From: Ariolimax columbianus
Taxonomy: Eukaryota > Mollusca > Gastropoda > Stylommatophora > Arionidae
Direction: 5' to 3'
NCBI GenBank assembly: GCA_036924085.1
Contig: JAVGWX010000013.1
Span: 65,057,157 to 65,121,156, forward strand
Length of the DNA: 64,000 bases
Shown one piece after another: positions 3,965-64,000 of this stretch. Every line of letters begins with the position of its first letter. The first letter of the stretch is position 1. A program made the translations under genes and the position numbers. The notes under the pieces were generated by a model. That model saw only the letters and a list, made by a program, of their open reading frames with translations, had not been told where the DNA came from and ran no database searches.

Positions 3965-5012
3965 GCTGGAGCACTACAACCACTGTGTTTTAGCATAGTC
4001 TGGAGCACATCAACCACTCTGTGGTAGCATAGTCTGGAGCACATCAACCACTCTTTTAGCATAGTCTGGAGCACTACAACCACTCTGTGGTAGCATAGTC
4101 TGGAGCACTACAACCACTCTGTGGTAGCATAGTCTGGAGCACATCAACCACTCTTTTAGCATAGTCTGGAGCACTACAACCACTCTGTGGTAGCATAGTC
4201 TGGAGCACTACAACCACTCTGTGGTAGCATAGTCTGGAGCACATCAACCACTCTTTTAGCATAGTCTGGAGCACTACAACCACTCTGTGGTAGCATAGTC
4301 TGGAGCACTACAACCACTCTGTGGTAGCATAGTCTGGAGCACATCAACCACTCTGTGGTAGCATAGTCTGGAGCACTGCAGCCACTGTGTGGTAGCATAG
4401 TCTGGAGCACTGAGCCACTGTGTGGTAGCATAGTCTGGAGCACTGCAGCCACTGTGTGGTAGCATAGTCTGGAGCACTGAGCCACTGTGTGGTAGCATAG
4501 TCTGGAGCACTGCAGCCACTGTGTGGTAGCATAGTCTGGAGCACTGCAGCCACTGTGTGGTAGCATAGTCTGGAGCACTGCAGCCACTGTGTGGTAGCAT
4601 AGTCTGGAGCACTGAGCCACTGTGTGGTAGCATAGTCTGAAGCACTGCAGCCACTGTATGGTAGCATAGTCTATAGCACTGCAGCCACTGTGTGGTAGCA
4701 TAGTCTGGAGCACTACAGCCACTGTGTGGTAGCATAGTCTGGAGCACTGCAGCCACTGTGTGGTAGCATAGTCTGGAGCACTGCAGCCACTGTGTGGTAG
4801 CATAGTCTGGAGCACTGCAGCCACTGTGTGGTAGCATAGTCTGGAGCACTACAGCCACTGTGTGGTAGCATAGTCTGGAGCACTGCAGCCACTGTGTGGT
4901 AGCATAGTCTGGAGCACTGCAGCCACTGTGTGGTAGCATAGTCTGGAGCACTGCAGCCACTGTGTGGTAGCATAGTCTGGAGCACTGCAGCCACTGTGTG
5001 GTAGCATAGTGG
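3965..5012. repeat. 34-bp minisatellite, about 31 copies
   Basis: Core GTGGTAGCATAGTCTGGAGC followed by a variable ACTACAACCACTCT-like segment. The first third (about 3999-4340) cycles through three variants as a roughly 100-bp higher-order unit. The remainder uses a CTGCAGCCACTGT variant, with some 32-bp units lacking GC. Long minus-strand open frames here are repeat artefacts. Confidence 0.92.
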
Positions 5013-33897: not shown

Positions 33898-34860
33898 CTC
33901 AGCCAGTCGGATGTGTTAGACAAAAAGGGGAAAAAATTGCAGTTCAGCTGTAAACTACGTCACAACGCATTCCGTTTTCTGCACTACATTTTGCTACTTG
34001 CAAAGCCTTTTCCATGGCTTGGTAGCGGGAAATTGAGAACGTTCAGGGCTTGGTAGCGGGAAATTGAGAACGTTCAGGGCTTGGTAGCGGGAAATTGAGA
34101 ACGTTCAGGGCTTGGTAGCGGGAGATTGAGAACGTTCAGGGCTTGGTAGTGGGAGATTGAGAACGTTCAGGGCTTGGTAGCGGGACATTGAGAACGTTTA
34201 GGGCTTGGTAGCGGGAGATTGAGAACGTTCAGGGCTTGGTAGTGGGAGATTGAGAACGTTCAGGGCTTGGTAGCGGGAGATTGAGAACGTTCAGGGCTTG
34301 GTAGTGGGAGATTGAGAACGTTCAGGGCTTGGTAGCGGGACATTGAGAACGTTCAGGGCTTGGTAGCGGGACATTGAGAACGTTCAGGGCTTGGTAGCGG
34401 GACATTGAGAACGTTCAGGGCTTGGTAGCGGGAGATTGAGAACGTTCAGGGCTTGGTAGCGGGAGATTGAGAACGTTCAGGACTTGGTCGTGGGAGATTG
34501 AGAACGTTCAGGACTTGTAGTGGGAGATTGAGAACGTTCAGGGCTTGGTAGTGGGAGATTGAGAACGTTCAGGGCTTGGTAGCGGGAAATTGAGAACGTT
34601 CAGGACTTGGTCGTGGGAGATTGAGAACGTTCAGGGCTTGGTAGTGGGAGATTGAGAACGTTCAGGACTTGGTCGTGGGAGATTGAGAACGTTCAGGGCT
34701 TGGTAGCGGGAGATTGAGAACGTTCAGGGCTTGGTAGCGGGAGATTGAGAACGTTCAGGGCTTGGTAGCGGGAGATTGAGAACGTTCAGGGCTTGGTAGC
34801 GGGAGATTGAGAACGTTCAGAGTTTGGTAGCGGGAGATTGAGAACGAACGAAGACAAAGT
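33898..34860 (+). mobile_element. SINE-B whose 3' end is amplified into a 31-bp array
   Basis: The SINE-B central block (CAGTCGGATGTGTTAGACAA, AAACTACGTCACAACGCATT) leads into GGCTTGGTAGCGGGAAATTG. It closes at 34835-34855 with GAGATTGAGAACGAACGAAG. Between them lie about 27 copies of the same 3' segment. Confidence 0.92.
34015..34846. repeat. 31-bp minisatellite, about 27 copies, derived from SINE-B
   Basis: Unit GTTCAGGGCTTGGTAGCGGG plus AGATTGAGAAC. Variants AAATTG, ACATTG, GTAGTGGG and GACTTGGTCGTGGG recur in blocks, indicating multi-unit duplication. The unit equals the penultimate 31 bp of SINE-B. Confidence 0.95.
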
Positions 34861-41324: not shown

Positions 41325-43735
41325 GTGATATATTGCTGATAACCCTATCTCACTGATAGCCCGATCTAGCTGATAACCTTATCTCGCTAAAAACCCTATC
41401 TCGCTGATAACCCTATCTCACTGATAGCCCGATCTAGCTGTTAGCCCTATCTCGCTGATAACCCTATCTCACTGATAGCCCGATCTAGCTGTTAGCCCTA
41501 TCTCGCTGATATCCCTATCTGGCCGATCGCCCTATATCGCCGATCGCCCTATATTGCCGATCTCGCTGATCCTCCTATATCGCTGATCCTCCTATATCTA
41601 TGATCCTCCTATATCCCTGATTCTCATATATCCCTTATCCTCATATATCGCTGATCCTCCTATATCTTTGATCCTCCTATATCCCTGATCCTCATGTATC
41701 CCCGACCCTCCTATATCACTAATCCTCTCCCTGATCCTTCTATATCTCTAATCTTCATATATCCCTGATTCTCATATATCCCAAATCCTCACATATCGCT
41801 GATCCTTCTATATCCCTGATACAAATGTATCCCTGATCCTTCTATATCCCGGACCCTCCTATATCACTAATCCTCTCCCTGATCCTCCTATATCCCTGAT
41901 TCTCATATATCGCTGATCCTCCTATATCCCTGATTCTCATATATCGCTGATCCTCCTATATCTTTGATCCTCCTATATCCCTGATCCTCATGTATCCCCG
42001 ACCCTCCTATATCACTAATCCTCTCCCTGATCCTTCTATATCTCTAATCTTCATATATCCCTGATTCTCATATATCCCAAATCCTCACATATCGCTGATC
42101 CTTCTATATCCCTGATACAAATGTATCCCTGATCCTTCTATATCCCGGACCCTCCTATATCACTAATCCTCTCCCTGATCCTCCTATATCCCTGATTCTC
42201 ATATATCGCTGATCCTCCTATATCCCTGATTCTCATATATCGCTGATCCTCCTATATCTTTGATCCTCCTATATCCCTGATCCTCATGTATCCCCGACCC
42301 TCCTATATCACTAATCCTCTCCCTGATCCTTCTATATCTATAATCTTCATATATCCCTGATTCTCATATATCCTATATCCTCACATATCGCTGATCCTTC
42401 TATATCCCTGATGCTAATGTATCCCTGATCCTTCTATATCCCGGACCCTCCTATATCACTAATCCTCTCCCTGATCCTCCTATATCCCTGATTCTCATAT
42501 ATCGCTGATCCTCCTATATCCCTGATTCTCATATATCGCTGATCCTCCTATATCTTTGATCCTCCTATATCCCTGATCCTCATGTATCCCCGACCCTCCT
42601 ATATCACTAATCCTCTCCCTGATCCTTCTATATCTATAATCTTCATATATCCCTGATTCTCATATATCCTATATCCTCACATATCGCTGATCCTTCTATA
42701 TCCCTGATACTAATGTATCCCTGATCCTTCTATATCCCGGACCCTCCTATATCACTAATCCTCTCCCTGATCCTCCTATATCCCTGATCCCCCTATATCC
42801 ATGAACCTCATATATCCCTGATCCTCCTATATCCCTGACCCTCCTATATCACTAATCCTTTCCCTGATCCTCATATCTCCCTGATTCTCATATATCCCTG
42901 ATCCTCCTATATCCCTGATCTTCCTATATCCATTATCCTCATATATCTCTAATCCTTATATATCGCTGATCCTCCCATATCCTTGATCCTCCTATATCAC
43001 TGATCCTCCTATATCGCTGATCCTCCCATATCCTTGATCCTCCTATATCACTGCTCCTCCTATATCGCTGATCCTCCCATATCCTTGATCCTCCTATATC
43101 GCTGATCCTCCTATATCCCTGATCCTCCTGGTTTAGAAGACCATATCAGAGAGAGCCCTGATCCTTTTGCTGATCCTCCTATATCTCTGACCCTCCTATA
43201 TCTCTGACCCTCCTATATCTCTGACCCTCCTATATCTCTGACCCTCCTATATCGCTGACCCTCCTATATCTCTGACCCTCCTATATCTCTGACCCTCCTA
43301 TATCTCTGACCCTCCTATATCTCTGACCCTCCTATATCTCTGGCCCTCCTGTATCTCTGACCCTCCTATATCTCTGGCCCTCCTGTATCTCTGACCCTCC
43401 TATATCTCTGGCCCTCCTGTATCTCTGACCCTCCTATATCTCTGACCCTCCTATATCTCTGACCCTCCTATATCTCTGGCCCTCCTATATCTCTGACCCT
43501 CCTATATCTCTGACCCTCCTATATCTCTGACCCTCCTATATCTCTGGCCCTCCTATATCTCTGACCCTCCTATATCTCTGACCCTCCTATATCTCTGACC
43601 CTCCTATATCTCTGACCCTCCTATATCTCTGACCCTCCTATATCTCTGACGCTCCTATATCTCTGACCTTCCTATATCTCTGACCCTCCTATATCTCTGA
43701 CCCTCCTATATCGCTGATTCTCCTATATCACTGCT
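41325..43735. repeat. 17-bp satellite, 2.4 kb, with 296-bp higher-order repeat
   Basis: Base unit CTGATCCTCCTATATCC with variants. Three zones. 41325-41530 is the ACCCTATCTCGCTGATA type. 41640-42780 has a higher-order unit of exactly 296 bp: CTCATGTATCCCCGACC recurs at 41691, 41987, 42283 and 42579. 43170-43720 is almost uniform CTGACCCTCCTATATCT. A GGTTTAGAAGACC insert at about 43130 interrupts it. No ORF meaning. Confidence 0.95.
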
Positions 43736-44768: not shown

Positions 44769-45744
44769 GCCCATCCCTACTGTACGAAAACCTACCTGGA
44801 AGCAGCATATATTTCCAGAGGTGGTAGAAAACATACCAGGTATTCGAAAAAAGAACAGCCAGACTGAAAAAGAAAGAAGACACATAACCCTCAGGTACAT
44901 AACGGAAAACTACCCAAGCATGGACTGGACCCATGCATTCACCGACGGCTCTGTAACAAACACAACACAGAACGGAGAGGCAGGGGTGTTCCAAATGGTA
45001 GAAAAACAACACTATCAGATGCAACTGGAAAATACTCAAGCAATTTCAGAGCGGAGGCAGAGGTACTGAGGGCTGCAGTAGCAGAAATGGTGACATGCAA
45101 CATAAATGAAAGCCATATAGCCCTGCTTACAGATGCCCTGGCCGTAGTCACAGCACTAAAATGCCAGAAAAATACTGAACTTAATGATTTAAGAGCAGTA
45201 CTCTGTCAACTATGCCCGCAGTCCGCACCAAAAAGAGTAGTGGTACAGTGGGTTCTATCCCACTGTAACATCCAAGGCAACGAGGGGGCAGACAGACTGG
45301 CAAAAGAAGGTGCAAGACTACCACAACCATATACTAGTGTGACCTACGAAGAGTCAAAAAGGCTTATTAGAGCTAGATACATGACCAAATGGGAAACAGA
45401 ACATACTGGCTACACAAAACCGATGCCTATTACCAGTTGAACAGAAGAGAGCAGGTCGTGGTCTTCAGACTTCGCACTGGCCACAATAGACTGAGGTACC
45501 ACCTATTCAACAAATTGAAGATAGGTTGCACTGACGAATGCATGTGTTGTACTGGGAAAATGACCGCTGATCATCTGCTGCAAAACTGCCCGACATACGA
45601 GGATCAGAGAAAGCAGATGTGGCCATCATCAGTGGCAACACTAGACAAGCTCTATGGCAGTGTCGACAGCCGCAGGATGACCGCTGCTTTTTTCGAAAAA
45701 ATAAAGGTTGACGTCTGACAGCGTACGAAGAAGAAGAAGAAGAA
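44769..45744 (+). pseudogene. LINE-B: RNase H domain and C-terminal knuckle with (GAA)n tail
   Basis: Three frames carry it. Frame 1 to 45069 has MDWTHAFTDGSV (first catalytic Asp). Frame 3, 45087-45440, has HIALLTDALAVVTALK (Asp) and VVVQWVLSHCNIQGNEGADR (His and Asp). Frame 2, 45389-45718, has VVFRLRTGHNRLRYHLFNKL, CMCCTGKMTADHLLQNCP and the C-terminus KIKVDV. The tail is GAAGAAGAAGAAGAAGA. Perfect 12-bp duplications GATTGGATGCAA flank it (44757-44768 and 45745-45756), so it is a 5'-truncated retrotransposition event. Two frameshifts inactivate it. Confidence 0.93.
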
Positions 45745-48289: not shown

Positions 48290-49478
48290 AAAGTTAGGGT
48301 TAGGGTTAGGCTAAGGGTTAGTGTTAGAATGTCGGTTAGGATTATGGTTTATATAAGGGCTAGGGATATCATTTTTTGTTTGGGTTAGATTTAGTGTTAA
48401 AATTTATGTTAGGGTTAGTAATAGTGTTAGGGTTACTATTAGGGTTGGGGTTACTGTTAGAGTAAGTGTTAGGGTTACTATTAGGGTTAGGGTTACTGTT
48501 AGAGTAAGTGTTAGTGTTACTATTAGGGTTGGGGTTACTGTTAGAGTTAGTGTTAGGGTTACTATTAGGGTTGGGGTTACTGTTAGAGTTAGTGTTAGGG
48601 TTACTATTAGGGTTGGGGTTACTGTTAGGGTTGGGGTTACTGTTAGAGTAAGTGTTAGGGTTACTATTAGGGTTGGGGTTACTGTTAGAGTTAGTGTTAG
48701 GGTTACTATTAGGGTTGGGGTTACTGTTAGAGTAAGTGTTAGTAATAGTGTTAGGGTTGAGGTTAGGGTTACTGTTACGGTTGGGCTTATTGTTAGAGTT
48801 AGTGTTAGTAATAGTGTTAGGGTTGATGTTAAGGTTAGGGTTACTGTTACGGTTGGGCTTATTGTTAGAGTTAGTGTTAGTAATAGTGTTAGGGTTGATG
48901 TTAAGGTTAGGGTTACTGTTACGGTTGGGCTTATTGTTAGAGTTAGTGTTAGTAATAGTGTTAGGGTTAGTGTTAGTAATAGTGTTAGGGTTAGAGTTGA
49001 GGTTAGGCTTAGGGTTAATGTTAGAGTTAGGGTTAGTATTAGTGTTAGAGTTGGGTTAGTGTTAGGGATAGGGTAGGGTTAGTATTAAGGATAGGGTTAG
49101 TAAAGGTGTTAGGGTTAGTGCTTGTGTTAGGGTTATGGTTAGTGTTAGGGCTAGGGTTAGGGCTTGTGTTCAGGTTAGTGTTAGGACTAGGGTTAGAGTT
49201 TGCGTTGAAGTTAGGGTGAGTATTAGTGGTATAGTTAGGTTTAGTAATAGTGTTAGGGTTAGGGTTAAGGTTAATGCCTGTGTTAGGCTTAGAGTTAGTA
49301 TTAGGGCTATGTCTTGTGTTAGGGTTAGGTCCAATGTTATGGTTAGATCTTCTGTTAGGTTTAGGCTTGTATTAGGGGTAAGCTTAGGTCTTATGTTAGG
49401 GTTAGGTTGTCTGTTAGGGTTATGTCTTGTGTTAGGGTTAGGTCTTGTGTTAGGGTTAGGTCTTGTCTTAATGAGGCG
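48290..49478. repeat. Telomere-like TTAGGG/TTAGTG hexamer array, 1.2 kb
   Basis: Exact GTTAGGGTTAGGGTTAGG occurs at the start. Most of the array is hexamers TTAGGG, TTAGTG, TTACTG, TTACTA and TTGGGG. A period of about 66 bp is visible in 48430-48740 and a longer unit in 48736-48960. It ends at an RT remnant. Val/Leu- or Arg/Val-rich ORFs are artefacts. Confidence 0.92.
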
Positions 49479-50570: not shown

Positions 50571-51490
50571 GGTGACAGCTAGCTTCAGGGCAAGCGAACC
50601 AGAACTGCCAAGATCCTTACCCACTTCCACGTTATGATCCTGGATATCAGACTGCTACAGGACATACTGACTAAGGAGAAGGGATGAAGAAGGAAGGCGA
50701 ATCCGGTACCAGCAATTTCAGAGCAGAGGAGAGGCACTGAAGGCTGCAGTAAAAGCAATGCTGACAGGCGAAAGCAATGAAAGCCAGATAGTTCTGTTTA
50801 CAGATACCCTGTCCGTGGTTACAGCACTAAAAAGCCAGAAAAATACAGAACTTAATGATTTAAGAGCAGTACTCTGTCAACTATGCCAGCAGTCCGCACC
50901 AAAAAGAGTAGTGGTACAGTGGGTTCAATCCCACTGTAACATCCAAGGAAACGAGGAGGCAGACAGACTGGCAAAAGAAGGTGCAAGATTACCACAACCA
51001 GATTCTAGTGTGACCTACGAAGAGTCCAAAAGGTTTATTAGGGCCAGATACATGGCCAAATGGGAAACAGAACATACTGGCTACACAAAAAACGATGCCT
51101 ATTACCAGTTGAACATAAAATAGCTGGTCGTGGTCTTCAGACTCCGCACAGGCCACAACAGACTGAGGTACCATCTATTCAATAAACTGAAGATAGGTGG
51201 CACTGACGAATGCACCTGTGGTACAGGGAAAATAACCCCTGAACATTTGCTGCAAAATTACCCAACATACGAGGACCAGAGAAAGCAGATGTGGCCATCA
51301 CCAGTGGCAATACTAGACAAGCTGTAGGGCAGTGTCGACAGCCTCAGGATGACAGCTACTTTCTTCGAACAAATTCAAGTTGACGTCTGACAGCGTACGA
51401 AGAAGAAGAAGAAGAAGAAGAAGAAGAAGAAGATGAAGAAGAAGAAGAATAATCCGGTACCAACAAATTCGTGCTGAAGTCGGATATAAT
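50571..51490 (+). mobile_element. SINE-B interrupted by a LINE-B insertion
   Basis: The left part (50571-50711) has CAAGCGAACCAGAACTGCCA, AAGGAGAAGGGATGAAGAAG and AATCCGGTACCA. The right part (51451-51490) resumes AATCCGGTACCAACAAATTC and GTGCTGAAGTCGGATA. Joined, they follow the SINE-B order. Confidence 0.87.
50712..51450 (+). pseudogene. LINE-B 3' portion with (GAA)n tail, inserted in SINE-B
   Basis: SQIVLFTDTLSVVTALKSQ (RNase H Asp), VVVQWVQSHCNIQGNEEADR (His/Asp), FIRARYMAKWETEHTGYTK, then in another frame FRLRTGHNRLRYHLFNKLKI, GGTDECTCGTGKITPEHLLQ and EDQRKQMWPS. The tail is (GAA)n, 51402-51450. Perfect 12-bp duplication AATCCGGTACCA at 50700-50711 and 51451-51462. It is closely related to the 44769 copy, with one frameshift and a premature stop at about 51327. 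Confidence 0.93.
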
Positions 51491-56590: not shown

Positions 56591-57208
56591 AATGTAGGTT
56601 GATTAAATACTTTATGTGTATCGTATTTATTTTTCTCAGACAATTTTTTGATTTCATTAATCATAAAATGTTTCTGGTTTGATCGTATGATTGCCCTTTC
56701 GCCACTAGTCATGAGTAAACCGCCTTTACAGTTTGCCTCTTAACAGGACGCCGGGGTCCGAACATCTGCAGAGGGGATTTCAAAGCATTGGTTTTAATAA
56801 TGAAGTTGTTAGTGGTATGCCCAACGGTATTTACTCACATTTTACGATGTGCTTTGAACGTTACAGATGTTCTCTTCTTGACTGCTCGTATAGTTTATCT
56901 TAGTTTGGTGGATTCCCAGCTTTGTGAAGGATGGACGAAAAACCCCATTTGAATTTATCGACCAGATTTGTGGACATTTCAGAGCTCTGATGACTGTTTC
57001 CGATTTTCCCACTGGACACTTGAAGGAATGTTGATTCCCGACATCCCCCGAAACAGCCTGCACAATCTTTTTTTAAATATTCGACTACGGAAATATGAAG
57101 CTGGAGCAAGCCAAACAAACAGTTGGGGTGCTGGTTGCAAAGAAACTGCTTCTACAGTAAGAACCACGCAAGACCCACAGCCTCAAAGCAAGGCTGACGA
57201 GGCAAAAT
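56591..57208 (+). promoter_or_regulatory. Upstream region and 5' leader of the Notch-ligand gene
   Basis: No repeat family recognised here. The leader contains an in-frame TAA at 57158-57160, 17 codons before the start codon, which bounds the ORF. The transcription start is not visible: no clear TATA box at a convincing place, and a 5' non-coding exon further upstream is possible. Confidence 0.45.
57095..57160 (+). CDS. Candidate upstream ORF (21 codons)
   Basis: ATG at 57095-57097 opens MKLEQAKQTVGVLVAKKLLL and one more residue, then TAA at 57158. It is in the same frame as the downstream Notch-ligand start at 57209, 48 nt after its stop. If the transcript starts upstream of 57095, this uORF could lower initiation at the main start. 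There is no evidence that it is translated. Confidence 0.3.
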   Translation: MKLEQAKQTVGVLVAKKLLLQ

Positions 57209-57319
57209 ATGTGTCGTCTGGCAATCGCTTGGCTTTTGCTGAAATTCTTGCTTCATCTTCTACCACTGCTGATGTTGTTGGTTCGACAGACAAAGGGATC
57301 TGGTATCTTCCAGTTGCAG
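57209..57319 (+). CDS. jagged-like: Notch ligand (Jagged/Serrate-like), exon 1 coding part: signal peptide
   Basis: Transmembrane ligand of Notch, made at the cell surface. This exon gives 37 residues. A hydrophobic signal peptide (MCRLAIAWLLLKFLLHLLPL then LMLL, ending about residue 25) is followed by RQTKGSGIFQLQ. GSGIFQLQ matches the S-G-x-F-E-L start of mature Jagged and Delta proteins, with Q in place of E. It ends TTGCAG at a consensus donor GTGAGT (57320-57325), phase 0. Exon 2 at 62362 starts in phase 0, and the joined reading continues the MNNL domain (FQLQ then IESVRNIRGE). A stop 17 codons upstream supports this ATG. A different frame is longer here and hides this exon. The 5' UTR limit is unknown. 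Confidence 0.82.
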
Positions 57320-57483
57320 GTGAGTGGTTTCGCTGATTTTTATATTCAGTAATTTGTTTATATTAATTAATGGTCACACAAATATGACAAAAATGAAGAT
57401 TTCAACTCTATACTACGTCTAGCAACATAAGAGGAAAATGAGGTGATCAATCAATCTACCAATTAAAATAATGTAAGCTCCGT
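57320..57483 (+). other. Start of intron 1 (57320-62361)
   Basis: The intron is 5,042 bp: donor GTGAGT at 57320, acceptor TTTGTTCCAG ending at 62361. It contains LINE-F, SINE-H, SINE-B, LINE-M, SINE-C with a long GAA tract, and a mariner with a LINE-B inside. No other exon-like stretch was found in it. Confidence 0.75.
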
Positions 57484-58255
57484 ATGGAGTATTGGTCGTT
57501 TGCAGATGACGTGGCCTTGATCACGAAATCCGAGGCACATCTGCAGATCAACTTGCAGGTCTGGGAAAAAGAGAGAGAGCGGCACATTAGCAGCTCCAAG
57601 ACAAAAACCATGATGATCACCAGAGATGAGAAGAGACATCAGATATCCCTGGGAACACGAGCAGTGGAGCAGGTCAGCAACTTTAAATGTCTAGGAGTGG
57701 TAATAGACAGCAGGGGAGGAATCAAAGAGGAGTTAACTGCTCGAAGGGCAGCAGCAGGTAGACTTTTCCATGCAATAAATGGAGGATTCCTCAGCAAAAG
57801 AGAAATAAGCAGGAAAACAAAGATGGGTGTGAGTCATGGGCAATGACTACAGCCCACGAAAGGCAACTACAACCATCAGAAATGAGGTATCTAAGAAAGA
57901 CGGCTCAGGTGACGAAAAGGGACAAGATCCGTAACTAGACAATACGTAGCAATCTCGAAGTTCAACCCCTGCAGACACGAGTGGAGCAGTTCCAACTACA
58001 GTAGTTTGGCCATGTCTGTAGAATGGAAGAAGATCGGATACCAAAGCGGTCATGGGAGATACAACGTCAAGGGCGCAGACACCCAGGACGTCCAAAAGTA
58101 CTTTATGAAGACAACATACGACTGTCCCTAAGTGATCGAGGCCTGGATTGGAAAGAGGCCAGGAAAAAGACGGCGGAAAGAGCAGTGTGGCGTTCTCTTT
58201 GGAAAACCTCTACACCTCACGGTAGAAGAGGAGCGACTAAGTAAGTAAGTAAGAA
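57484..58255 (+). pseudogene. LINE-F: RT palm (FADD) to C-terminus, (AAGT)n tail
   Basis: EYWSFADDVALITKSEAHLQ keeps an intact F-A-D-D catalytic motif. Then SSSKTKTMMI, VEQVSNFKCLGVVIDSRGGI, AAAGRLFHAINGGFLSKREI and SRKTKM. After a frameshift come MRYLRKTAQVTKRDKIRN, FGHVCRMEEDRIPKRSWEIQ, RRHPGRPKVLYEDNIRLSLS and WRSLWKTSTPHGRRGATK, ending in TAAGTAAGTAAGTAAG. This is the most complete RT C-terminal half in the window, but it lacks the fingers and endonuclease and is frameshifted at about 57840. It lies in intron 1, same sense as the host gene. Confidence 0.9.
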
Positions 58256-58454
58256 GTATTGGTCATCAACAGAATACGTCCCAGCTATCAAAGGAGACTG
58301 GCTGGAGAGTTACAAGATGTGTGAAGCCTACTCCATGATATAAATATACCCCATGATCGGAGTAGTACCACCTCAGATACAAAGAAATGTGGCATCAGAA
58401 GTTAACAGAGAGAAACAGGCAAATGGCTCAAAGTCCTCTATGTTTGGACACCAT

Positions 58455-59095
58455 GAGAGACTCAGTGGTCTCGAGGTAAGGATCCGTCTCGGGTGGGGGA
58501 CTCAGTGATCTCGAGGTAAGGTTCCGTCTCGGGTGGAGGACTCAGTGATCTCGAGGTAAGGTTCTCTGTCTCGGATGGGGGACTCAGTGGTCTCGAGGTA
58601 AGGTTCCTTCTCGGATGCCGGAGGTCGCGGGTTCGAATCATGGTGAAGACCGTGATTTTTTCACATGGATCTTCTGGTAAGAGTTCCACTGATCTCTGGG
58701 TAGTGAGATCGGACTCCCGCACGTTAAAAATTCCTTGGCAGTTGGAAATCGAAACGAACAAAATTCAAGTAAAAAATCAACGCAAGTTATTTGTACCTTT
58801 TCCCAGGTGGATTGATGAAAGCAGCTATAGATGGCGCCTAACTGGCTGTGGGTCTAATTAGCTCTAGTGTTTGTCTATTTAGATGGACTCACACATCGGT
58901 TAAACCACTCTCCAAGAAACTGGTTGTATTCATACTCTGTAGAGTCTTCTAAACCAGTATAAAGACGTTAAGTTAAGTTTAGTTAAGTCAAGTCAAATTT
59001 AGTTTAGTTTAGTTTAGTTTAATTTAGTTTAGTTTAGTCAAGTTAAGTTTAGTTTAGTTTAGTTTAGTTTAGTCTAGTTCAGTTAAGCTAAGCTC
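58455..59095 (+). mobile_element. SINE-H (tRNA-derived) with head repeated and (TTTAG)n tail
   Basis: The first 40 bp of the head (GACTCAGTGGTCTCGAGGTA, AGGTTCC) is repeated about four times (58455-58600). The last copy continues into CGCGGGTTCGAATCATGGTG (B box). The body has GATCTCTGGGTAGTGAGATC and GATGGCGCCTAACTGGCTGT. The 3' end is AACTGGTTGTATTCATACTC, TAGAGTCTTCTAAACCAGTA, TAAAGACGTTAAGTT, followed by a (TTTAG)n tract (58975-59095). Confidence 0.88.
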
Positions 59096-59097
59096 AG

Positions 59098-59460
59098 CTC
59101 AGCAGCGCATGAGCGGTAACGGTCAGCGACCCATAGCTGACTGCTAGTGTCAGGGCCAGCGAACCAGAGCTGCCAAGACCCTTCTACTTCTCCACGTGGT
59201 GATCCTGGATAACAGGCTGCAACATGTCAGAATAGCTAAAGTAGAAGGGATCGAAGAGGGAATGGAACACGTTACTCAAAAATGCTTGCTGAAGTCGGAT
59301 GTGTCGAACCGAAAAATGCAAATACCGCAGCCTAGCTGTGAACTACGACACAACGCATTCCGTTCTCTGGACTACATCCTGCTACTTGCAAAGCCCTTTT
59401 CAAGGCTTGGTAGCGGGAGATTGAGAACGAACGAAGAAGAGGAAGAGAAAGAGCTGTAGG
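59098..59460 (+). mobile_element. SINE-B, full length, GAA tail
   Basis: CAGCAGCGCATGAGCGGTAA, CACGTGGTGATCCTGGATAA, TTGCTGAAGTCGGATGTGTC, CGTTCTCTGGACTACATCCT, GATTGAGAACGAACGAAGAA then GAGGAAGAG. It inserted between the SINE-H tail and LINE-M. Confidence 0.9.
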
Positions 59461-59735
59461 AGGATCCTGCGCCTGGACACCACTTGTCGTACGCAACATG
59501 GAAGTCACTAAACAGACCCTGAAGTGATGCATCACTTCAAGAGATACGACTGTTGGGGCAACTTAATACACAGACCACCTGATGATCTGCCTAAACCTGA
59601 AACATGCAATGTGGATGCCATGTTTAGGGCGATAGACAAGGCAACCCACGGGGCTGAACATTGGAAACATGATGTCTGACGTAGTGATCAGGACTGTCTG
59701 ACGTAGTGCCCAGGACAGGGGAAGTAAGTAAGCTA
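59461..59735 (+). pseudogene. LINE-M C-terminal remnant
   Basis: CGCAACATGGAAGTCACTAA, CACCTGATGATCTGCCTAAA and GAACATTGGAAACATGATGT correspond to the TWKSLNR, DHLMICP and AEYWKNDV segments of the 6128-6560 copy. It ends GGGGAAGTAAGTAAG. It is heavily frameshifted. Confidence 0.7.
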
Positions 59736-59779
59736 TCAAACATTATCTGGAGCCATGGTCGACGCAGCACCATGAAATA

Positions 59780-60500
59780 AACGGCGACTTACATCAGGTT
59801 CAGCGAATCAGAGCTGATCAAGACCGTACTCCACCTCCAAAACGCCGGACATGGAAACAGGCTGCACTGGTGTAGTTTTGTTACGAGAATATGAATCACA
59901 AAGGCAGGCAAACGTGGTGCAAGAAGACGACGAAGATGAAATTTGATGCATCGGGTAGAAGGGCACAGATGTTGCAGCAAGGCTGTAAGATATGACAGAG
60001 AGAGCGGCACAACGTTATTTTCAGAACAAACGCCGAAGAAGAGGAAGAAGAAAAAGATAAAGAAGAAAAAAAAAGAAAAGGGAAAGGAAGAACAATAACA
60101 AGAAGAAGAAAAAGAAGAAGTAGAAAGAAGAAAAAGAAACAGTAGAAAAAACAGAAATAGAAGAAAAAGAGGAAGATGGCGAAGAAGAAGAATAATAAGA
60201 AGAAAAATAAAAAGAACGAGAATAAGTAAAAAGAAGAAGAAAAAGAATGAGAACAAAAAGATAAAGAAGAAGAAGAAGAAATAGAAGAAGAAGAAGAAGA
60301 AGAAGAACAAGAAAGAGAAGAAAAAGAAGAAGAAGAAGAAAAAGAAGAAAGAGAAAAAGAAGATGAACAAGAAGAAATACAATAAATAGAAAGAAAGAGA
60401 AAAAATTAAAAAGATAAAAAGAAAAAGAAGAAGAAAACAAGAAGACGGAGAAGAAGAATAATAAGAAGGAGAAGAAGAAGAAGAAAAAGAAGTAGAAGAA
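59780..60500 (+). mobile_element. SINE-C with a 450-bp GAA/AAG tail
   Basis: CATGGAAACAGGCTGCACTG, GAAGGGCACAGATGTTGCAG, CACAACGTTATTTTCAGAAC and AAACGCCGAAGAAG. Then an almost pure A/G tract (60036-60500) of GAAGAAGAAAAAGAAG-like repeats with rare T. It is the longest GAA tail seen. The Phe/Leu-rich minus-strand ORFs are artefacts. Confidence 0.85.
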
Positions 60501-60659
60501 ACGTTAACCTTTCTTTATATGTAGAAGTTATTGTGACAAAGTTTATACAGGAGGAAGTAGGCAGCGCTATACCTAACTTTGTTTCATGGCTTCCTCTGAC
60601 AAGTTAAAGGAGATGTTAATATATTTGCTTGCGTTAAGATTTATAAACACGATTGACTG

Positions 60660-62053
60660 TCATTAAGTAACATCAATTTTATTACAAAGTGCATGAAAGA
60701 GTATATATAACGAGAAATCTAATTTCAGGACACAAAATGATTTTTTTTAGCAATACTTCATGTCGGGATTGTGACGAAATAGCAGAATGCACATGCGCAA
60801 TATAACTTATAACACCTACCGTCGACTTGCACCATTGGAGAACAACGAGGCGTTATTCGTTTTATGTAGTCAGAGGGTGTGAAGCTTTCAGAAATATAAG
60901 AAGAAGGAAGCTTCAGCATGGAGACAGTTGTTTGAGGTCAGAGGAAAGTGTATGAATGGTAGAAAGATTTTTAAATGGAAGACAAGACGTCATTAATGAA
61001 CAGCGGCGTTGGAGACCAGCAAACGTGGCAACTGGCGCAGGGAAGCAGAAGATCAACCAGCTAGTCCGTGGTAACTATTGATGAAAGAGCCAAATATTTC
61101 AACATGTGTAACCGCGCTGTGCACAAAATTGTCATTCAAGACCTCGGTTATAGGAAAATGTAGGTTCCAAGACAGATGACGAGGTAAAGGAGGCGGTGCA
61201 AAATTGGATAAAGGTCATACCAAATGTCTTTTTTCTAGAAGGCATTTTTCTTCTTCTTCTTCTTGTTCTTTTTCTTGTTTTTCTTCTTGTTCTTTTTCTT
61301 GTTCTTGTTCTTCCTCTTCTTCTTCTTCTTCTTCTTCTTTTTCTTCTTCTTCTTCTTCTTCTTCTTCTTCTTCTTCTTCTTCTTCTTCTTCTTCTTCATC
61401 TTTTTCTTCTTCTTCTTCTTCTTCTTCTTCTTCTTCTTCTTCTTCTTCTTCTTCTTCGCTTGCTGTCAGACATCAACTTGAATTTGTTCGAAGTAAGCAG
61501 CTGTCATCCTGAGGCTGTCGACACTGCCATAGAGCTTGTCTAGTGTTGGCACTGGTGATGGCCACATGTGGTTTCTCTGGTTCTCGTATTTCGAGCAATT
61601 TTGCAGCAAATGTTCAGCGGTTATTTTCCATGTACCACAAGTGCATTCGTCGGTGTCACTTATCTTCAGTTTATTGAATAGATGGTACCTCAGTCTGTTG
61701 TGGCCTGTGCGGAGTCTAAAGACTACGACCTGTTCTCTTCTGTTCAACTGGTAATAAGCATAATTTTGTGTGTAGCCAGTATGCTCTGTTTCCCATTTGG
61801 CCATGTATCTGGCCCTAATAAACCTTTTGGACTCTTCGTAGGTCACACTAGAATCTTCCACCTTATGTCAGACCGTCTGCCGCTTCGTTGCCTTGAATGT
61901 TACAATGGGATGGAAGCCACTGGACCACTACTCCTTTGGGTGTGGACTGCTGGCATAGTTGACAGAGCACTGCTCTTAGAGGACTTTCACAAACTAGTGG
62001 ACGCGTGGACAAAGTGTGTTGTCAGGCAAAGAGACTATATCGAAAAATAAGAC
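60660..62053 (+). pseudogene. Mariner-like transposon, internally deleted and split by a LINE-B
   Basis: 60690-60880 is a presumed 5' region (also at 56225-56410). Transposase fragments: WYRRFLNGRQDVINEQRRWR and PANVATG (N-terminal HTH region, frame-shifted, about 60955-61035), IDERAKYFNMCNRAVHKIVI with QDLGYRKM (61080-61160), then directly TDDEVKEAVQNWIKVIPNVF and FLEG (61170-61240). After the LINE-B insertion the frame resumes as DFHKLVDAWTKCVVRQRDYI and EK, then a stop (61982-62050). The whole catalytic core between RKM and the late helix is deleted, so it cannot encode an active enzyme. Confidence 0.87.
61226..61990 (-). pseudogene. LINE-B 3' portion with about 210-bp TTC/GAA tail, inserted in mariner
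   Basis: Minus strand: QWLPSHCNIQGNEAAD (61870-61930), SSVTYEESKRFIRARYMAKW, FRLRTGHNRLRYHLFNKLKI, TDECTCGTWKITAEHLLQNC, KLYGSVDSLRMTAAYFEQIQ and VDV stop at 61466. The tail (TTC on plus) is 61245-61457. The flanking TAGAAGGCATTT and TAGAGGACTTT are an imperfect duplication. The open frame from 61861 to 61466 is the longest intact piece of this family here. Confidence 0.9.
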
Positions 62054-62361
62054 ACATAAAATGTCTGGTTTACACTCTTTTAAAAATGTTATAACATTAC
62101 TGTTACTTAATGACTGCCCCTCGTACAATAGAAGTTCTGCTTGAGGAAAACGACACGACAATCATGGAGCCGTAAGACATGATTCAATCAACACGGAAAG
62201 TAAGTAAATGACAGTATGCCAGGTACTCATTTGCAGCTAGTTACATTCGAACGTATCTATAACGTAGATCAAACTCTTTTCATCGAAAAAACCAGCTCTC
62301 TACTACTCTACTCGGAGACTCTACCCATCATCAAGTTTATATCATCATATATTTGTTCCAG
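62054..62361 (+). other. End of intron 1
   Basis: No repeat recognised. The splice acceptor ATATTTGTTCCAG ends at 62361 with a modest pyrimidine tract. Confidence 0.6.
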
Positions 62362-62622
62362 ATCGAAAGTGTGCGCAATATTCGGGGCGAGACGGCGTCA
62401 GGAACATGTTGTGATGGTGGCGAGGTGACGATAGATGGATGCAAAGATCCCTGCGAGACCTACGTTCGAGTCTGCCTCAAGGAGTATATGGATCGTGTGT
62501 CCATGGAAGGATACTGTACCTTTGGCAACTACACCACTGACGTTCTTGGAGAGAATAACTTCAAGTACCCGTTGAACACCCATGAGACTTTAATACAACT
62601 TCCCTTTAATTTTGCGTGGTTG
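62362..62622 (+). CDS. jagged-like: Notch ligand (Jagged/Serrate-like), exon 2: MNNL domain
   Basis: The exon is 261 nt, 87 residues, phase 0 at both ends: acceptor CAG at 62359-62361, donor GTGAGT at 62623-62628. It encodes the N-terminal MNNL (C2-like) domain that starts Notch ligands and contributes to Notch binding. Visible signature: TASGTCCDGG, then a spacer, DPCETYVRVCLKEYMDRV, EGYCTFGNYTTDVLGENNF and LIQLPFNFAW. All six MNNL cysteines are present (two adjacent, three in the C-x3-C-x6-C block, one before TFG). V-C-L-K-E-Y favours Jagged/Serrate over Delta, where C-L-K-H-Y is usual. The loop after NNF is short. The DSL domain and EGF repeats must lie on later exons beyond the window. 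No stop or shift is seen. Confidence 0.92.
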
Positions 62623-62764
62623 GTGAGTATTCTAACTTGTTGTGATGGCTGTAAAGAGGTCCATCTTCCTTGTGCCTTTGTCTTCAAGAGGGAAGAGGGT
62701 GGTTTATGTGTCATGAGCTTGGTTTACAAGCCCAGGGTATCTGTGGTAGGGGGCTGGGGGGGGG
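62623..62764 (+). other. Start of intron 2; G homopolymer
   Basis: After the donor, sequence is unassigned, with a run of about 10 G at 62757-62767 just before a SINE-D. Confidence 0.6.
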
Positions 62765-63075
62765 GGGTGTCTCTTTGGTCGAGAGTTAAGGCACTTGCCT
62801 TTAACAGTGATTAACGGAAATGATGGGCGGTGAAATCCACTATGGTCAAGCGACTCCTGGTCTCAACGGAGGAGGCACCAGAATGCCTGCATAATGAGTT
62901 ACCTAGATTTTTTACTTAAATAGTGCCACTAGTCCAAGGTTGCTCGGAACCAGAGAATGAGGTTGATGACCAACACAGTTTCTTCCTCACACAAATCCAA
63001 ATACAGAGCAAGTTACATCATCAAGGCAACAACCATCTGATGATGTCAGCATCTTCGCTTGTGATGGGCAACTAA
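62765..63075 (+). mobile_element. SINE-D (tRNA-derived), near full length
   Basis: Head TTTGGTCGAGAGTTAAGGCA (A box region) with a weak B box (GGTGAAATCCA). Body TGGTCTCAACGGAGGAGGCA, TAGTGCCACTAGTCCAAGGT, GAGGTTGATGACCAACACAG, CATCTGATGATGTCAGCATC and GTGATGGGCAACTAACTACC. Confidence 0.85.
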
Positions 63076-63079
63076 CTAC

Positions 63080-63296
63080 CTGGCATAGCAACATATCTAC
63101 TGGCGCGGCTCATATGGAGCATACAAGAATCAAGGAAGCTGCACGGAGACGGGTGACACGAAAGGCAAGTGAAGAGTTGCCTCCATCTAAAGGTCAGACA
63201 GTGCTTCTCTGTCCTTAGTGTGACAGACGCTTTCGGGCTCGGAATGGTTTGACCAGCCACCTCCAAACCCACTCCAGGATTGACAGATAGCAGTGT
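63080..63296 (+). pseudogene. LINE C-terminus with zinc finger
   Basis: Reading HTRIKEAARRRVTRKASEEL, PPSKGQTVLLCP, stop, CDRRFRARNGLTSHLQTHSR and IDR, stop. The C-x2-C, F-RARNGL-x-SH-x-x-TH finger resembles the LINE-A ending. The stop replacing the residue between the two cysteines marks it as decayed. Confidence 0.6.
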
Positions 63297-63570
63297 TATC
63301 TGCTTCTATTGGTTTGACCAGCCACCTCCAAACCCACTCCAGGATTGACAGATGGCAATGTAGTTCTCTTCGATTGGTTTGACCAGACACCTCCAAACCC
63401 ACTCCAGGATTGACAGATGGCAATGTAGTTCACTTCGATTGGTTTGACCAGCCACCTCCAAACCCACTCCAGGATTGACAGATGGCAATGTAGTTCTCTT
63501 CGATTGGTTTGACCAGCCACCTCCAAACCTACTCCAGGATTGACAGATGGCAATGTGGTCTGCTTCGGAA
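63246..63570. repeat. 65-bp minisatellite, about 5 copies, from the LINE finger
   Basis: GGTTTGACCAGCCACCTCCA begins units at 63246, 63311, 63376, 63441 and 63506 (exact 65-bp steps). The first unit is the LINE's own GLTSHLQTHSRIDR codons plus its 3' flank. Minus-strand ORFs here are artefacts. Confidence 0.94.
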
Positions 63571-63599
63571 GTGATGAACAAACAGCAATCAAGTTCAAA

Positions 63600-63925
63600 T
63601 CACGTCACCCTCGCTTTAACAGACCTGGCGGTATGTCGTTGATTATTTTTCCAAGCTTCATTCAACTCGACCCGACAGTTGTCCGTTTGGGTGGACTTCG
63701 AACTTTCATTGAGGCTTGCGGCTGAAATTAGCTGTTCTAACCCCTCAGTTATGTTTGGTGGTATCACATAATCGTCTGCATATGTTAGCTCTTGGATCTT
63801 GCATCCGCCGATTGTAAAGGGATCGTAACTTTCGATATTATCATCCCCTCTAACGTTCCTCATTACGCATTCTGCATACATGATAAATAGGTATGGGGAA
63901 AAGACACCAGATACTCTGATAACAG
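63600..63925 (-). pseudogene. LINE-K: RT palm with YADD
   Basis: Minus strand: FSPYLFIMYAECVMRNVRGD, then GGCKIQELTYADDYVIPPNI and TEGLEQLISAASL. The intact Y-A-D-D and the following E-G-L-E-Q resemble the YAED region of 2445-3510. A frameshift upstream at about 63900 separates it from the preceding motif. It lies antisense to the host gene in intron 2. Confidence 0.8.
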
Positions 63926-64000
63926 CTTCTTGTTACTGATATCATTCGATTCGATAATATGATTCGATTAGATGGATTAGATGTGCTGGAAACCCCAAAT

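Follow-up and report, generated by a model that had tools for sequence, protein, structure and literature searches.

The window analysed here, a 64,000-nucleotide stretch of the genome of the slug Ariolimax columbianus (contig JAVGWX010000013.1, hereafter C13, positions 65057157-65121156), almost certainly holds the 5' end of a protein-coding gastropod gene for a Jagged/Serrate-type Notch ligand, as predicted from genomic DNA. Jagged acts from the cell surface to activate the Notch receptor; the gene is a further, biologically ordinary representative of this established ligand family. A preliminary description had placed two coding exons in the window, and their coordinates, splice sites and phase 0 were all recovered from the DNA. 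We then followed the gene through 100 kb, 10 kb and 20 kb of downstream DNA, ending at C13 position 65251156, after the sixth EGF repeat. Its features, numbered from the first position of the window, are as follows.

Exon 1 (coding part): 57209..57319, plus strand; 111 nt, 37 codons, MCRL...GSGIFQLQ, phase-0 donor CAG/GTGAGT.
Intron 1: 57320..62361, plus strand; 5,042 nt, phase 0, GT-AG, containing repeats and a reverse-transcriptase-like fragment.
Exon 2: 62362..62622, plus strand; 261 nt, 87 codons, TTCCAG/ATC to TTG/GTGAGT, phase-0 donor, most of the C2-like MNNL domain.
Intron 2 (window part): 62623..64000, plus strand; continues to window-relative 149368, 86,746 nt in total.
Exon 3: window-relative 149369-149420, plus strand; 52 nt.
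Exon 4a: window-relative 151407-151563, plus strand; 157 nt.
Exon 4b: window-relative 163700-163791, plus strand; 92 nt, DSL exon beginning before RPRDD.
Exon 5: window-relative 166356-166416, plus strand; 61 nt.
Exon 6: window-relative 171373-171506, plus strand; 134 nt, last part of EGF1 and the complete EGF2.
EGF3 to EGF6: near window-relative 177246, 180414, 186348 and 189574, plus strand; positions of matches.

Exon 2 contains the six cysteines and the VCLKEY and LPFNFAW motifs attributed to it. Against the Pfam MNNL profile (cut-off 22.5 bits) it scored 99 bits by itself (E 2.4e-28), and the 124-residue product of exons 1 and 2 scored 110.5 bits (E 7.2e-32). Because its 37 codons are too short for the profile, exon 1 was examined separately. 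It encodes a hydrophobic leader (a putative signal peptide) and the first residues of the mature protein, and both the GSGIFQLQ ending and the CAG/GTGAGT donor reported for it are present. Residues 1-37 of a protein from the land snail Candidula unifasciata aligned end to end with 57209-57319 (25/37 identical, E 8e-4), which was the top-scoring match in a tblastn search of 264 kb of C13 and of C7, a second chromosome-sized contig with a related copy. Counting back from its ATG, the first stop in frame comes after 17 codons. Within the 20 kb preceding exon 2, three frames extend at least 20 codons between an ATG and a GTRAGT donor in phase 0; exon 1 alone among them is strongly hydrophobic at its start, with a peak 11-residue hydropathy of 2.54 versus 0.87 and 0.86. 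As had also been noticed, exon 1 is overlapped in a different frame by a longer open reading frame (56968-57336, 122 amino acids), and the two exons lie about 5 kb apart amid mobile DNA. The reverse-transcriptase-like fragment within intron 1 spans 57484-57846; its RVT_1 score of 19 bits is below the cut-off of 29.6.

The expected DSL and EGF exons were found past position 64000, on the same strand; the DSL exons fall outside the window because intron 2 is about 87 kb long. Human Jagged-1 matched the downstream DNA in order and on this strand by tblastn, including the DSL, which begins about 87-101 kb past exon 2, and EGF1 to EGF6. A search with the Pfam DSL profile of the whole 2.29 Gb genome (401 contigs) gave 16 matches, one of them at C13:65220854-65220943 on the plus strand (E 1.7e-8). 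The seven exons, with six GT-AG introns and running phases 0,0,1,2,1,2,1, join into 868 nt that encode 289 residues without a stop, in the Notch-ligand order that had been proposed: a putative signal peptide, the whole MNNL, DSL, EGF1 and EGF2. The product through exon 4b (224 residues) covered MNNL model positions 1-157 of 157 (E 3.4e-46) and matched the Pfam DSL model with an E value of 4.8e-19; all six DSL cysteines are retained. An intron interrupts the slug DSL after CTKLC-R, a difference from human Jagged: in human JAG1 a single exon spans the stretch that is split in the slug, and the first intron is placed some ten residues further upstream. The 289 residues scored 45.4 bits (E 8.3e-12) with the Pfam model EGF_DL_JAG, above its cut-off of 27, whereas JAG1-like_EGF2 (22.6 bits, cut-off 27) and a teneurin EGF model (27.9 bits, cut-off 65) fell below theirs. 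The gene occupies at least 132 kb of C13 and includes matches to at least six EGF repeats, the DNA having been read to just after EGF6.

Assignment to Jagged instead of Delta follows from the ranking of the 289 residues against solved structures. Jagged-2 (299 and 291 bits) and Jagged-1 (298 and 297 bits) came first, with E values of 4e-88 to 1e-85, and the human chains (PDB 4cbz, 5uk5 and 5mw5) are collinear with the slug product from signal peptide through MNNL, DSL and EGF1 to EGF2. Drosophila Serrate (PDB 7alt) was collinear over residues 32-289 and matched more weakly than vertebrate Jagged (272 bits, E 6.4e-80), and the best Delta-like chains reached 209, 208 and 208 bits (best E 7e-61). 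Exons 1 and 2 alone also ranked Jagged-1 and Jagged-2 at the top, at 70-74 bits. The end of EGF1 and the whole of EGF2 share one slug exon, flanked by phase-2 and phase-1 introns, as in vertebrate Notch ligands; the available part of one study reports this layout for JAG1, JAG2, DLL1, DLL4, DLK1 and DLK2, with three exceptions (PMC2725086). This unusual layout therefore occurs in a mollusc too, and since it is seen in Jagged and Delta types alike it marks a Notch-ligand gene, not Jagged specifically.

A homologue search with the 224-residue product returned three gastropod proteins and no others, each carrying only MNNL according to precomputed domains. The Candidula record ('unnamed protein product, partial', 124 amino acids), a third-party model and not a transcript, shares the MCR start and WL end of exons 1 and 2 and is 80% identical to them across all 124 residues; it stops at the end of exon 2, without DSL. 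The intron of about 87 kb that follows the first two slug exons illustrates how annotation can truncate a conserved gene of developmental signalling. The Bulinus truncatus 'Protein jagged-2' and a Biomphalaria glabrata MNNL protein have the same MCR start and FQLQ (exon 2 identity 68/87 and 67/87, respectively), and their later residues differ from the Jagged continuation.

The related copy on C7 was reached both by the Candidula protein and by a genome-wide Pfam MNNL search, which gave nine matches, four of them strong. Its recognized exons are the following.

C7 exon 1: 27740451-27740564; MCHL...GSGVFQLQ, matching C13 exon 1.
C7 exon 2: 27748318-27748578; matching C13 exon 2.
C7 DSL exon: 27860224-27860315; matching C13 exon 4b.

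The DSL matches of the two copies cover the same model positions (15-44), and both DSL exons start at a splice acceptor before RPRDD, indicating that the DSL-splitting intron is present in both. By tblastn, C7 27728001-27838000 (110 kb, extending 89 kb past exon 2) showed exons 1 and 2 and no exon 3 or 4a, the stretch 27838001-27860099 not being covered. A second exon-1-like match at C7 27743432-27743476 was dropped, as it continues in a long open frame with no donor there; we take this frame to resemble a retrotransposon. In exon 2 the copies are identical at 211 of 261 nt, with 7, 5 and 38 differences by codon position, dN of 0.06-0.07 and dS of 1.16-1.45 (three methods). The DSL exon is identical at 74 of 92 nt (differences 4, 1 and 13), and 28 of its 31 residues are the same. 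Judged from these comparisons, both copies look old and constrained by purifying selection.

We consider it likely that the pair has been kept since the genome duplication that Stylommatophora underwent (available part of PMC12328838), dated in the accessible portion of another study to 93-109 million years, with Ks of 1.61-1.71 for Arion and Lissachatina (PMC9392753). That the copies arose by a later, separate duplication is less probable. Exon 2 sites 56, 84 and 86, at which the two copies group together to the exclusion of Candidula and both outgroups, favour it, yet Candidula matches C7 and not C13 at eight sites, the reverse holding at two, and its exon 2 is slightly nearer C7 (80/87) than C13 (74/87). 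Since these sites conflict on whether the copies split before or after the divergence from Candidula, exon 2 does not settle the timing. The dS values lie close to the Ks printed for the genome duplication in the portion of PMC9392753 noted above, which also speaks against a later event, as does a second apparent gene pair on C13 and C7 with six VWC matches each, the sequences of which were not compared. The clusters of this pair, at C13:45661378-45697261 and C7:47565228-47607164, look like a second duplicated gene; further VWC clusters lie on C11 at 42.6 Mb and on C6 at 101.2 Mb. An origin of the Jagged pair in the stylommatophoran genome duplication thus remains our preferred reading, and the pair offers a Notch-ligand case for the fate of duplicated genes in land snails. 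Our search of the open-licence literature returned nothing on Jagged duplicates among land snails. Within the available text, a study of land-snail mantle and dart-sac transcriptomes yielded no Delta, Jagged or Notch (PMC6368272), and another lists a jagged-1-like protein from the mucus of Cornu aspersum (PMC10475054).

Several observations weigh against a Jagged gene as described. Jagged is set apart from Delta by an additional VWC domain, according to the available part of PMC8166818, and none of the 31 matches in a genome-wide Pfam VWC search lay at the C13 locus, where the DNA was followed to just after EGF6, or near the C7 copy. With exons 1 and 2 alone, fly Serrate (40.5 bits) fell below Delta proteins (47-49 bits). 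The C13 DSL reads GWMEREC at the place of the GWMG shown by Jagged-1, by Jagged-2 and by the copy on C7, and the exon joins are predicted from genomic sequence. The first two of these points, together with MNNL, DSL and EGF domains common to both ligand types and the shared EGF1/EGF2 layout reported in the accessible portion of PMC2725086, would suit a real gene for a Delta-type ligand. We nevertheless reject that reading as highly improbable, since Jagged chains reach 291-299 bits against the 289-residue product and Delta-like ones at most 209; moreover, the other MNNL exons of the genome differ in sequence, and the Bulinus relative is called jagged-2 in its source record, although this is a name only, with no test behind it.

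Equally hard to credit is a dying or dead C13 duplicate beside a working C7 gene: the missing glycine of GWMG and the four exon 2 sites unique to C13 where C7 and both outgroups agree (versus two unique to C7) lean that way, but we reject it on the 868 nt without a stop, the intactness of every splice site, the third-position excess in exon 2 (38/50) and the DSL exon (13/18), and the retention of six of six DSL cysteines.

For the Jagged ligand predicted at C13, family membership suggests how it would act. The signal peptide would bring the ligand to the cell surface, where the region from MNNL through DSL to EGF1-2 would bind Notch on an adjacent cell; uptake of the ligand would then pull the receptor open, and Notch cleavage would begin. 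The C13 DSL also contains YYNTTC, a possible N-glycosylation site. Because the GWMG glycine is lost and this site is present in the DSL, altered Notch binding by the C13 protein is possible. Tentatively, and with more doubt than confidence, we suggest that two Jagged genes may have been kept from the genome duplication about 100 million years ago, the C13 copy with a role of its own that perhaps involves such altered binding.

Other MNNL and DSL loci were also observed in the genome. Two with both domains, at C4:58511868-58532172 (minus strand) and C4:59504111-59521831 (plus strand), are oppositely oriented and separated by about 1 Mb; the 2.3 kb around their MNNL exons are 79.5% identical, an inverted duplication of a Delta-like gene. 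Two small contigs, C213 (82 kb) and C143 (143 kb), bear Delta-like MNNL exons that are related to each other, with 79% identity across 293 nt (C213:40603-61810 and C143:36921-37229), and C213 also has the top DSL match of the genome. Of four DSL matches at C10:42203343-42212562 (minus strand), three fall within a single 2830-residue open frame, which may encode a multi-DSL protein from one giant exon.

The remainder of the window is rich in repeats. Fragments at 45087-45718, 50758-51123 and 61466-61861, which have peptide strings in common, look like one RNase-H-bearing retrotransposon; 45087-45437 and 50758-51120 pass the Pfam RNase_H model, and 61469-61861 is without a Pfam match. A degenerate TTAGGG-like tandem array of about 1 kb at 48407-49459 (18-nt unit TGTTAGGGTTAGTGTTAG, 58.7 copies, 69% matches) resembles an interstitial telomere-like sequence. 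At 58459-58614, a 40-nt tandem repeat (3.8 copies) is followed by GGTTCGAATC, which we take to resemble the B box of a tRNA-derived short interspersed element; ARAGORN and Rfam gave nothing for it, and no matches in scans of the whole window for tRNAs and Rfam families. Minisatellites are numerous, among them arrays at 3966-5010 (34-nt unit, 31 copies), 34016-34846 (31-nt unit, 26.8 copies), 41566-43733 (17-nt unit, 130 copies) and 63245-63567 (65-nt unit, 5 copies).

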